Shown here piece by piece: positions 483 through 48,800 of a DNA stretch of 64,000 nucleotides. The DNA lies in contig OX387605.1 in NCBI GenBank assembly GCA_947568835.1, forward strand, positions 2,232,001-2,296,000, read 5' to 3'. The position numbers were made by a program, and so were the translations under genes. The DNA is from Protonemura montana. Its lineage: Eukaryota > Arthropoda > Insecta > Plecoptera > Nemouridae. Numbering within the stretch: position 1 is the first letter of the stretch; the number at the start of each line of letters is the position of its first letter. The notes under the pieces are model-generated. The model did no database searches and was not told where the DNA came from. It saw only the letters and a program-made list of their open reading frames with translations.

Positions 483-2523
483 GTTGTGGAGGCGTTTGAC
501 GTCGCCCAACAAGAAAACGACGCGCGCCCTGGAAGCGATCGACAAGAGCGTGCACGCGGTCGAGAGCGCCACTTCAGCCATGCGTGCTGAGTACACGACC
601 CAGCTCAACGCGGTCCTCGAGTGCTGCCAGAAGTCGGCCAAGCACGTCGACACCTCCACGGCGAGCTCCCAATCCACGCTGCACGCCATCAAGGTCGGCG
701 TCGACACCCTGCGAGGAGGCGACGCGTTGGCCGGACAGTTCGCCAGACAAATAGCAGATATCACGAGTCTGTTCGATCAGGGAGGAGGGCGTTGTGGGAA
801 CACTAGCAAGTCCGCCAAGCTGGAAGTGGAGGATGCCGAAGAGAGGGTCACCGTACAGCCTCGGCTCCCTGCGTGGATTGCCAACTCTTGTGAGGACTTG
901 GCTGGCACCGACTCGCTCAGTGGGGAGTACTCGTTTGGGGACCACGACGTCAACGAGGGGGGACGCGACTTTTCGAGGCGCTACTGTCAGATGGGCGTCG
1001 ATCGAGGAGGGTGGACTGTCATACAGCGGAGAGGCGACTTCCCTGGCGAGAGGCAGAACTTCTCGATATCGTGGGACCATTACAAGCACGGGTTTGGCGA
1101 CTTGAGGAAGGAGTTTTGGTTTGGTAACGATTTCATCCATCGACTGACAACGGAGAAGGAGATGACTTTGCGTGTGGAGCTCGAAGACTTTGAAGGGTCG
1201 CGGGTTTGGGCCCAGTACGCTAACTTCAGGTAAAATTGTACTGCATCTTTGTTAATTCTCTGCAACAAGCTGTTGCTTGGTGTGGGTCGGTGGCATGTTT
1301 ACAGGATAAAAGTTTCGACCAAAGTTGTCATATTTCTGGCGTTTTGCGCTGCTTTTTGTTAAGCACTTCACACGTAATTCAACGAGGGAGCAGACAGCTG
1401 TCGAGAGTAGCTCGGTCTTCTTAAAATATGTAAACTCAAACAACAGTTTTTAGCGTTTTTATGACATTTTTTGGTCATTGGCCGTTTTAAGGGCTGATAA
1501 ATAATTTTCTTTAAAAAAAATGTAATAGAAGTAAGATGCTTGACGGGCTGTGTCCCAAATGCCCGCGTGCTGCATCAAACGACTTGCTACAACAATTTTT
1601 TTTTTCATTTTTTCTACTTTAATTTCTTGTTTTCCTTGATCTACGGTCATCTCGCTGGTCACCCCATGTCAGACCCTGTCCTGTGTTAACAGCGTGGCCA
1701 GCGAGGTGGGACTGTATCGCCTGAGTGTCGGGGGCTTCAAGGGCATCGCCACAGACTCGTTGTCAGCACACGACGGCGTCCCCTTCAGCACGGGCGAGCG
1801 CGTGCACGACGCCGCACCTCCGTGCTGTCCATGTGCACCAGCATACGGTGGAGGCTGGTGGTTCGACAGGCAAGACCCTTGCAAGACCCATGCAAGACCT
1901 TTACAAGACCCATGCAAGACCCATGCAAGACCCTTGCAAGACCCTTGCAAGACCCATGCAAGACTCTTGCAAGACCCTTGCAAGACCCATGCAAGACCCT
2001 TGCAAGACCCTTGCAAGACCCTTGCAAGAGCCAGACAAGAGCCAGACAAGACCCAGACAAGACAATACACCCTGACCTCAAAATATAATGACAAGGCTGA
2101 AAAATAATTCCCAATCGACAGGAGTTGGGGCTTCTAAATACGAACATCATCATGTCTCTTTTTATTTTGCTTGGCCAATAAACCACGCCAATACTGCCCT
2201 CCTTGTCTCTAACAACCTAGATAGGAGGCTTCTTGCTTAGAATTCTTAGATGTCACTCCAGAAGTCGGCCTGATCCTTGGTCTTCCTGCAGCTGCTTCGA
2301 GTCGAACCTGAACGGCGTCTACTTTCTACCTTCGGAAGACCGCGAACACTTCCGAGGCATCATATGGGAGCACTGGCGGGGCAACAGGTCCCTGCGAGCC
2401 TCTACGATGATGATCCGACCCGGGGTCGGGCATCGGCTGGATGTTGACGTTGGGGACGTGGGACAAGCCACCACGATTAGCACAGTCGACGACGGTAACA
2501 CAGAGTCACCGGAGGACCCTTAG
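483..2523 (+). CDS. Fibrinogen-related (FReD) lectin, 5'-partial
   Basis: Secreted fibrinogen-C-domain protein of the ficolin/tachylectin-5/angiopoietin type; such proteins bind acetylated sugars or microbial surfaces in arthropod haemolymph. Exons 483-1229, 1693-1869 and 2292-2523 join in consistent phase 2. The first exon gives an Ala/Ser-rich stretch with helical character (ALEAIDKSVHAVESATSAM and onward), then the FReD from about 'SCEDL', with 'RGGWTVIQRRGDF', 'YKHGFGDLRKEFWFGN' and 'LRVELEDFEG'. Exon 2 gives 'YRLSVGGFKG' and 'YGGGWWFDS'; exon 3 completes 'CFESNLNGVYF' and a 'MMIRP' end, so the fold is whole. Where relatives carry the Asp-rich calcium loop after 'FST', this protein has GERVHD and a CCPC cluster, so calcium binding may be lost. 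The signal peptide and start must lie upstream. The second intron uses a GC donor. FReD identity is firm; the ligand is unknown. Confidence 0.88.
1870..2070 (+). repeat. 11-bp minisatellite at intron 5' end
   Basis: About 18 copies of CAAGACCCATG / CAAGACCCTTG fill the first 200 nt of the FReD intron. The array starts at the splice donor itself (exon ...GACAG, intron GCAAGACCC), so the donor's GCAAG is part of the first repeat unit. Confidence 0.93.
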
Positions 2524-2524
2524 G

Positions 2525-45809: not shown

Positions 45810-48800
45810 ATGGTTCGTGGACGAGGCAGGGGAGGAATGGGGAGAGGTATGGGACGTGGGCCAGGAATATTTAAAGTCAAACCCTTCGTTCCTCGCCACC
45901 CTTTCGATCTCGCATTGTGCGAATCAGCATTTCCTCGAGTCAAACCGATTCCCGACGAAGGGCCTTTCACCCAGGCCCTATTGAAACGAAATGCGGATTT
46001 GTCGCCATCTCCTCAAGAACAGACAGCTATCTTGAACCTGGTTACGAAAATCCAGACCGTAATGGACAATTTGGTCGTTGCGCCAGGGATGTTTGATGCC
46101 TGTGTAAGTTGTGTGACCTAACCTAAGATGTTTTGCAGAACTGCAGTACTCTTTTGAATTGCATAATTAAAGCTATAGTTTTAGTCATAATAATACTTGA
46201 CTTGTGTCTAAACAGCAATTGGAAGAAGTACGACAAGTGGGTTCGTTCAAAAAAGGTACCATGATGAGTGGACACAATGTAGCAGACATTGTGGTCATAC
46301 TCAAAACCCTGCCTACCTGTGAAGCTGTGGAAGCTCTCGGCGTTAAAGTACACGAGGATCTTAAGGCCCAGACTCCAAGTGAACTAACTACCGTTCAAAC
46401 AAACGAGCGTGGCTTTGATGTTATCAACGCTGACGCTAAAGTTCGTGTTCTGATGACCACTGTTCATCACAACTTGCGTAAGCTCGACCCAGAGTTGCAT
46501 TTGGACCAAAAGATACTGCAGAGCCACTTGGCAGCAATCAGGCACATAAGATGGTTCGAGGAGAATGCACACCATTCGTCGATCAAAGTGTTGATACGAC
46601 TTCTTCGAGATTTAAGGTGTAGATTTGATGGGTTTGAACCACTTTCTCCCTGGATGCTAGATCTGCTTGCACACAGCTCAATCATGAACAATCCCAGCAG
46701 GCAGGCACTGCCTATTAACCAAGCGTATCGCAGGTAAATATCCTACAGGCTATCAGTTTAATCAGTCCACCATTAATTTCTTTTTTAAAGATATCACTTC
46801 TAAAGATTTAATTAACTGTTAAGTTGAGAGATATATATATTGCCAGTTGTGTATCACCCACTATAAAACATGTTATATAAATGAAAATTGGCTGGAATTT
46901 GAGTCAATCATTCCCTTTTTTTCTTAATGTTCCAGCCTAAACAAAACTGGATGCATTTTAAGTTTCAGTGTTTTTTGACGTGACTACGTCTTAAAGCGCA
47001 TTACATAGGGAGGCATGTACGGATTTGCTCTCCAAAATGGCAAATGTGTAACAACCCCTACAGCCTACAGGAAACAAAGGACAGAATGCAATTTATTATC
47101 ATTCAATAGTTCAGATAATTCTCTAGAAGTACTTTTTTTTATTTTTGATAAACTAAATATTGGAGGCGTTAGAGGGGTTGGCGTTTTTAATGCTCTCCAT
47201 AAGACCAATGTTAAATTACGCAAAACGGCAAATGTGCAACAAGCCCTACAGCTTACGTTTGGCGGCAGAACCGTATGAAAGATCATTTGAGAAGAATCAT
47301 CTCAGATGAAGATCTTTTATAGTTTTATGGTTTCTTGCATGTGAAGTATGGTCAGTACGGTAGTTGACGTACGTGCCTACGCGGTAGTTGAACGTAGTCA
47401 CGCTTAAATATCGGCCGTGTCAATAAGATACAGCTACACCCGGGTTTTTTGCTTGTTTAGTTCTTAATTAGTAACAAAAGGAATTTACAGGATTCTATTG
47501 TAATGATGTTTTCTCCCTGAAAGTCCTCAGACTCGACATCCTGTTAACATGTGATCCTTGGTGTCTACAGAGTCATGCAGTTGCTGGCGTCAGGACTATT
47601 CCTGCCCGGCTCAGCTGGCATCAACGATCCTTGCGAGGGCGGTAACATTCGCGTCCACACTGGCATGAGTCTCGAGCAGCAGGATGTTGTCTGTCTCACC
47701 GCTCAAACACTGCTGCGGATTCTCTCGCACGGCGGCTACAAGCGGATCCTTGGTCTCGAGGAGGGCGGGGTGAGCAACCAAAGCGAGTTGGCATGTGAAT
47801 AGGGTACCAAGAGGCTGGATATTGTGAATAGGGGGCCAAGAGGCTGGATATTGTGAATCGGGTGTCAAGAGGCTGGATATTGTGAATAGGGGGCCAAGAG
47901 GCTGGATATTGTGAATAGGATGCCAAGAGGCTGGATATTGTGATTAGGATGCCAAGAGGCTGGATATTGTGAATAGGGGGCCAAGAGGCTGGATATTGTG
48001 AATCGGGTGTCAAGAGGCCGGATATTGTGAATAGGATGCCAAGAGGCTGGATATTGTGAATAGGATGTCAAGAGACTGGATATTGTGAATAGGGTGCCAA
48101 GAGGCTGGATATTATAATAGGGTGCCAAGAAGCTGGATATTGTGAATAGGGTGCCAAGAGACTGGAAATTGTGAATAGGATGCCAAGAGACTGGATATTG
48201 TGAATAGGATGCCAAGAGACTGGATATTGTGAATAGGATGCCAAGAGGCTGGATATTGTGAATAGGGTGCCAAAAGGCTGGAAATTGTGAATAGGGTGTC
48301 AAGAGGCTGGATATTTGTTATGGTGAAGGAGGAAGGAGAGGAAGGAGGAAAAAATTGGCACTAGTTGAGAAATGTCTCGAATTTTGACGTTTCTGTTTAT
48401 TGCGTCTGTCATTGTTAGAGCTGTCGTGGTTTATGATGTTACTTCTCTAACGATATTTGTTATCTGTTAGGTATGATGGGAGGTTAGATTCGATGTTAGA
48501 TGACAAAAGCAACTACTAAGACAAGTCCCACAAAGTAAATGTGTTGGACATGCGTTGGTCTTAGTGTCAAGAAAGTCCAAGGATTTAGAGCAGACCTCGA
48601 TAAGTGAAGCTGTCGGAAAGATGTTTAGAGTAGACCTGTAAAGCAGGTATTGTTTATCCCGTTGCTTTCCTAATTAGAGCCTCATGGAAAGTAACTGAAC
48701 TGTAGAAGTCTGCCTTGGCTAGGTCAATTGGATTCAAGTGATCAAAGGGTTCGACAATTACTTCCTCCTTTTGCCTTAAGAAAACCTTCTGCACATAACT

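Follow-up and report, generated by a model that had tools for sequence, protein, structure and literature searches.

The stretch analyzed here, which we call the window, comprises 64,000 nucleotides (nt) of the stonefly Protonemura montana (contig OX387605.1; C3:2232001-2296000 of the 258 Mb assembly of 34 contigs), and our subject is the position of tandem repeat arrays within its introns. Nine genes were rebuilt from homology and splice signals, namely, FReD, SP-A to SP-F, ILF2, and PSMA2, with 35 introns in total, and the spliced frames, checked across the predicted donors and acceptors, are open in all nine. The Pfam domains found in the window are fibrinogen-related, Muted, DZF (ILF2), sarcoglycan, and proteasome, and the FReD exon join WWFD-SCFESNLNG fits the fibrinogen-related pattern. 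The clip-type serine proteases encoded here are suggestive of an arthropod. Tandem Repeats Finder (TRF) reported 39 non-overlapping arrays at a score of at least 40, of which 13 are intronic, 12 are coding, and 14 lie elsewhere or are unassigned. An initial annotation had proposed that such arrays repeatedly begin at splice donors of unrelated genes, and all seven of the places it cited were located.

The donor distance was measured between the first base of the intron and the start of the TRF array, and the expected counts were obtained by placing each array at random, uniformly over the free length of its own intron. At a score of at least 40, seven of the 13 intronic arrays start within 40 nt of a donor, compared with 2.33 expected (P 0.0002), which bears out the proposed excess; at a score of at least 50, the count is five of ten against 2.17 (P 0.011). 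No excess appears near acceptors, with 2 of the 13 arrays (score of at least 40) against 2.33 expected. When only introns with at least 200 nt free are considered, 5/11 arrays are donor-near at score 40 (P 0.0006) and 3/8 at score 50 (P 0.018). Array starts are therefore not spread uniformly along the free intron length, and the same is true of the sample from outside the window described below.

Among the seven cited examples, the FReD intron 2 array (11 base pairs [bp], 0 nt, frame-checked) and the SP-A intron 3 array (10 bp, placed within 10 nt and measured at 7 nt) stand as described. The SP-A intron 6 and ILF2 intron 3 arrays are also near donors, although the former lies 21 nt away instead of 12 nt, and the latter, at 24 nt, has a unit of 29 bp instead of about 25 bp. 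For the larger SP-E array, the distance of about 20 nt is right (21 nt), while the intron is the fourth by our count and the unit is 10 bp rather than 11 bp. The remaining two, the AAT run in SP-B and the GATA run in SP-E, are trivial microsatellites, the second of only about four units and absent from the TRF list at score 40. A donor-near repeat in SP-F intron 1 had been overlooked, and where one array near an acceptor and one mid-intron had been counted, we find six intronic arrays off donors at a score of at least 40 (12031-12095, 14420-14447, 15210-15238, 18255-18674, 26114-26217, and 48833-48875).

Table 1. Arrays and splice donors in the window (positions counted from the first base of the window)
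Feature	Position	Strand	Evidence or distance
FReD exon 2, GC donor ACAG/GCAAG (slash, splice site)	1693..1869	+	Spliced frame open; exon 1 has Pfam Fibrinogen_C
FReD intron 2 array, 11 bp, from first intron base	1870..2063	+	TRF; distance 0 nt
SP-A intron 3 array, 10 bp	6257..6973	+	TRF; 7 nt past donor, 31 nt short of acceptor
SP-A intron 6 start; exon end and donor duplicated once in tandem, copy at 8480-8520	8407..8520	+	
SP-A intron 6 array, 21 bp	8428..11760	+	TRF; 21 nt past donor, 349 nt short of acceptor
SP-A intron 6, 14-bp array	12031..12095	+	Ends 14 nt before acceptor
Trivial AAT microsatellite that takes in the donor of SP-B intron 3	15086..15114	+	TRF score 42
SP-C intron 1 array, 91 bp	18255..18674	+	203 nt past donor
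SP-D intron 4 array, 15 bp, mid-intron	26114..26217	+	Donor 155 nt, acceptor 121 nt
SP-E intron 4 array, 10 bp	35444..35531	-	21 nt past donor, 55 nt short of acceptor
SP-F intron 1 two-copy 12-bp repeat	41072..41095	-	TRF score 48; 21 nt past donor
Donor of ILF2 intron 3, with the 24 nt preceding the array	47770..47793	+	Spliced frame
ILF2 intron 3 array, 29 bp, dispersed satellite family member	47794..48315	+	TRF; genome-wide word count

Since the peak in the window had been spotted post hoc, it was tested on donors outside the window, in stretches to which L-numbers (L010, L040, L104, etc.) refer. The sample consists of 103 usable donors from the exon flanks of kinase, trypsin, kinesin, and myosin genes, chosen before any array was seen. 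For kinases and trypsins together, 64 match rows and then a further 14 were taken from the 145 and 161 matches, with rank and short length as approximate guides; on the donor side, 65 exons were left after 13 terminal ones had been excluded, of which 64 met the score cut-off, and on the acceptor side 10 first or uncertain exons were excluded and 62 of 68 passed. Most of the 103 myosin and 90 kinesin rows yielded 101 introns, 66 of them of at least 300 nt, and the 40 longest of these 66 were used on the donor side, where 39 had a donor. Fifteen random 10-kb stretches gave the background, by which each donor window of 44 nt is expected to hold about 0.008 to 0.009 array starts.

In the outside sample, an array begins no more than 40 nt past the donor in 10 of 103 cases, where chance predicts 0.85 to 0.96 (P 2e-8 to 8e-8); the offsets are 0, 1, 3, 8, 9, 9, 10, 11, 23, and 39 nt (that of L019 is 12 nt or 8 nt, depending on which predicted donor is taken). 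Between 41 and 160 nt, there are 2 starts against 2.3 expected. Counting strong arrays only (score of at least 200) leaves 7 against about 0.21. The donor of L040 and the start of L104 had been placed manually, and both donors were later upheld by the reading frame; without these two, 8 donors remain (P 8e-6), and with one donor per gene, 7 (P 7e-5), given that L106, L109, and L112 belong to one gene and L043 and L048 to another. A second intron at L040, designated L040b, was found by extension beyond the sample and is not counted among the ten. The sharp peak at 0 to 40 nt past donors, which the initial annotation had named as the check on its claim, is thus seen in the 103-donor sample of predicted donors. 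The peak is present in two independent data sets, and its position at donors is firm. That the pattern is a chance product of reading one array-rich window selectively seems to us far-fetched: the finding was indeed post hoc and the window holds 2.5 times the random array density (30 arrays in 64 kb versus 28 in the 150 kb of the random stretches, score of at least 50), but it was replicated on donors picked without knowledge of arrays. On C2 at 1.244-1.248 Mb, three introns of a single kinesin gene (L106, L109, and L112) begin with different arrays (34 bp, 68 bp, and TAA).

By their anatomy, the donor-near arrays fall into three kinds. Those of FReD, SP-A intron 6, and the kinesin L104 contain donor or exon sequence (similarity P 0.01, 0.003, and 0.003, respectively). 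A second kind starts 3 to 39 nt past the donor without similarity at P 0.05 and includes SP-A intron 3, ILF2, L019, L040a, L040b, L043, L045, L048, L090, L106 (P 0.1), and L109. The third, in SP-B intron 3 and L112, consists of TAA microsatellites that include the donor. The SP-E intron 4 array has only a 9-nt exon word in common with its exon (P 0.023). Exon or donor similarity as a universal cause was rejected, since only six of 17 arrays (FReD, SP-A intron 6, SP-E intron 4, L104, SP-B intron 3, and L112) reach P 0.05.

A unit that spans the exon-intron boundary is found in full in L104, as one exact copy in SP-A intron 6 (41 nt at 8480, including the exon end and the donor), and for the donor only in FReD. 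FReD intron 2 belongs to the GC-AG class, its first array unit beginning with the donor GCAAG, and it holds GCAAGA 14 times; the GC-AG donor at window position 1870 is the array-unit start, as if both had been homogenized together. The SP-A arrays cover 717 of the 755 nt of intron 3 and 3333 of the 3703 nt of intron 6, and an alignment of paralogous SP introns for the entry points of the SP-A arrays gave no informative match. The clearest case is the kinesin intron L104 on C14, which holds 24 copies of its own exon end. The exon-end word recurs 24 times between 620003 and 621672, mostly in 72-bp steps; the complete units read contain GGGTGAGT, which the last copy has lost, and the copies read, the last one excepted, carry GG/GTGAGT. 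This array ends 159 nt before the acceptor, the intervening 159 nt are non-repeat, and the flanking exons join in the protein. Repeated splice signals were not seen in the units of ILF2, L043, and L045. The junction-primed duplication suggested in the initial annotation accordingly suits FReD, SP-A intron 6, and L104, with their donor or exon copies, and does not suit ILF2 or most outside arrays, which start beyond the donor and lack exon similarity.

Protein continuity fixes both intron ends in the CDK-like gene L040 (two introns), the kinesin L104, and the kinases L043 and L045. The two CDK-like introns are almost all array, with 9+456+46 nt in L040a and 18+548+11 nt in L040b for donor flank, array, and acceptor flank, respectively. 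The L043 intron measures 1172 nt, of which 314 nt are free, and its array starts 11 nt past the donor; the L045 intron measures 1637 nt, with 914 nt free and an array start at 9 nt. The spliced frames in the window models and in L040, L104, L043, and L045 are open provided that the first donor is used, and it is presumably this donor that is employed. Weakness of the donors beside arrays was considered and rejected, the mean number of matches to a U1 consensus being 6.7 versus 6.4 (P 0.32).

The units come from both private and dispersed sequence. The exact unit dimer of SP-A intron 3 occurs nowhere else in the genome, the exact 24-nt unit word of SP-A intron 6 is private to its own locus, and the L104 word has a single locus genome-wide. 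The FReD unit word has one other place (C2:8.901-8.904 Mb), and the L045 unit recurs at four more sites within 0.5 Mb on C14, as a single copy at one of these, and as two isolated copies on C15. By contrast, a 34-mer of the ILF2 array has 889 exact copies genome-wide (436 forward and 453 reverse) and the L043 unit word has 2027. Among the matches listed (about 100, from contig C1 and the start of C2), the ILF2 word lies on C1 at 0.07-0.28 and 27.8-32.4 of 33.1 Mb and the L043 word at 30.2-32.2 Mb; on C1, the 29-bp and 60/86-bp satellite words among these matches all fall in the outer parts of the contig. The claim that the arrays are not one dispersed element therefore holds for SP-A introns 3 and 6 and fails for ILF2 and for arrays outside the window. 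As private and dispersed repeats are both found at donors, place appears to matter rather than any one element.

It is conceivable that ready-made satellites or heads of short interspersed nuclear elements (SINEs) insert just inside introns, in an introner-like or circle-derived manner. In keeping with this, the ILF2 and L043 words are dispersed, with many listed sites, the ILF2 unit recurs in the same sense relative to the kinase exon in L058 and L082, L040a and L018 have a common 41-bp unit, and the 91-bp unit of SP-C intron 1 is also present in L018 and L090. ILF2 and L058 further have the unit and its sense orientation in common and, by eye, similar purine-rich 3' flanks. Capture of dispersed elements is nevertheless improbable as the explanation of the whole, because the SP-A intron 3, SP-A intron 6, and L104 words are single-locus, so that an introner-like character is not found there, the FReD word occurs in two places only, and ILF2 and L058 have no common 5' flank by eye. 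A derivation of the 91-bp unit from 5S rRNA, based on a resemblance seen by eye (GTTAAGCAAC...GGATGGGTGACC), was not supported by Rfam at E values up to 1. Two stretches outside the window contain interstitial arrays whose units resemble the TTAGG telomere repeat, L010 at 814-2698 (1.9 kb) and L016 at 1-5248 (5.2 kb), the latter also holding 4751 N.

The initial annotation knew of no described system of this kind, whereas the mirages of amphioxus and a repeat excess in plants and algae have been reported. As far as the available text of the amphioxus reports goes (PMC3087553, PMC3902484), mirages, known from Adh3, globins, TnC, and PGBD5, are tandem duplications that resemble minisatellites and take in exon-intron boundaries; their units measure 10-160 bp, many of them carrying splice signals, and mirages have been linked to intron gain. 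L104, SP-A intron 6, and FReD fit such boundary duplication. Mirages differ in involving both boundaries; here the donor itself is left out of many arrays, which begin immediately downstream of it, and dispersed satellites are involved. In plants, above all in green algae, tandem repeats are denser near intron-exon junctions according to the portion of PMC3887541 consulted; the excess there is U-shaped over both intron ends, unlike the starts within 40 nt of donors found here, mostly of minisatellites. Daphnia pulex, another arthropod genome with intronic tandem repeats, has its highest repeat density in introns, although units of more than 8 bp are much sparser there than elsewhere in that genome, and the word "splice" is absent from the main text as available (PMC3152781). 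The accessible part of a study of Caenorhabditis elegans minisatellites shows no donor-side peak (PMC4039745). In a search of mainly open-access literature, judged by title or abstract opening, we recognized no account of arrays peaking on the donor side in any arthropod.

The tandem duplication of AGGT-containing exon segments is a widely cited model of intron gain, the Rogers model, with cases in fission yeast, ATP2A1, and potato RdRp (PMC4974935, as available), and under it a new intron begins at an array by construction. L104, with its 24 exon-derived copies carrying splice signals, resembles the product of such an event, the like of which has been reported for fission yeast and others in that source. 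As a general account, we regard it as very improbable. The positions of SP-A introns 3 and 6 are common to SP-B and SP-D, with flanking exon lengths of 155/110 and 176/171-172, which implies that at least these two introns are old and predate their arrays; a site that lacked an intron before the duplication is thus not what we find for either. Moreover, the L104 intron retains its 159 nt of non-repeat sequence before the acceptor, most arrays are not exon-derived, and the arrays here run to tens of copies, unlike those of the model.

Taking these observations together, we favor, though tentatively, boundary duplication or capture combined with selection that pins the first donor as the likeliest origin of the peak. 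The 5' end of the intron would be a favored site for tandem arrays in this genome, where they arise either when the exon end and donor are duplicated in tandem, as in mirages (FReD, SP-A intron 6, and the C14 kinesin), or when other sequence, dispersed satellites included, is amplified or captured just past the stretch that binds U1. The left edge of the array would be pinned because the first donor must remain intact for splicing, and the array would be free to grow rightward to the branch-point region. The peak would then be made by duplication or capture tied to the boundary plus selection on the outermost donor. It is possible, if doubtful, that donors are themselves nucleation sites, where a process linked to transcription or splicing (U1/R-loop breakage or capture of satellite circles) makes or catches arrays, of local and dispersed units alike, in about 1 intron in 10.

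Several results weigh against donor-tied formation. Of the arrays beside the 62 outside acceptors, one ends no more than 40 nt away and another three end at 41-160 nt; within 100 nt there are 4/62 against 1.2 expected (P 0.034). The cut-off removed L098, in which an array lies about 57 nt from the probable acceptor, and the L058 array lies more than 160 nt away. The excess at donors over acceptors has a Fisher P of 0.054, or 0.57 when a longer acceptor signal is allowed, and this weak contrast, together with the arrays near acceptors, means that the process may favor exon edges generally; a distinction between donors and exon edges at large is not proven. In four of 18 donor-near cases (SP-A intron 3, SP-E intron 4, L040a, and L040b) the array nearly fills the intron and closeness to the donor is largely forced, 11 of the 17 donor-near arrays compared resemble neither exon nor donor at P 0.05, and the arrays at 12031-12095, in SP-C intron 1, and in SP-D intron 4 lie off donors within the window.

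Next after the favored explanation, and to our mind unlikely without being implausible, comes a passive constraint, whereby arrays arise anywhere in introns, their flanks erode by deletion, and their edges finally stop where the splice signals set a limit. As a donor needs about 6-9 nt and an acceptor about 40-80 nt, such erosion alone would produce an asymmetry that looks like a donor preference. The array-filled introns agree with it (SP-A intron 3, 7+717+31; SP-E intron 4, 21+88+55; L040a and L040b, as above), as do the acceptor-side arrays of the outside sample, which stop 40, 74, 77, and 82 nt away, and the restriction of offsets below 7 nt to arrays that share donor sequence (FReD, SP-B intron 3, L104, L106, and L112). 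Arrays also start at donors where free length is available, however, at 0 nt of 262 nt in FReD, 24 of 1175 in ILF2, 11 of 314 in L043, and 9 of 914 in L045, and the bias persists among the window arrays with at least 200 nt free.

A 76-bp unit repeated 17 times at 28251-29546 of the window leaves minus-strand open reading frames of 468, 357, and 229 amino acids in all three frames, long open frames despite a unit length that is not a multiple of three. The clip-domain proteins SP-C (19379-21373) and SP-F (37931-39183) contain large coding repeats. ARAGORN found tRNA-Ser-like sequences in the window at 25665-25740 and in L034 at 623-695; L034 and L084 have a tRNA-like 52-bp unit in about 14 tandem copies, probably a SINE head.

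With these data, what in amphioxus was a curiosity of a few genes becomes a positional peak that can be measured over several gene families of a different animal, and the birth and retention of minisatellites within genes becomes a testable question. The FReD and kinesin introns, where one presumed donor stands beside many copies (14 of GCAAGA in the former and about two dozen of the exon end in the latter), are natural cases that may be useful for the study of splice-site choice.

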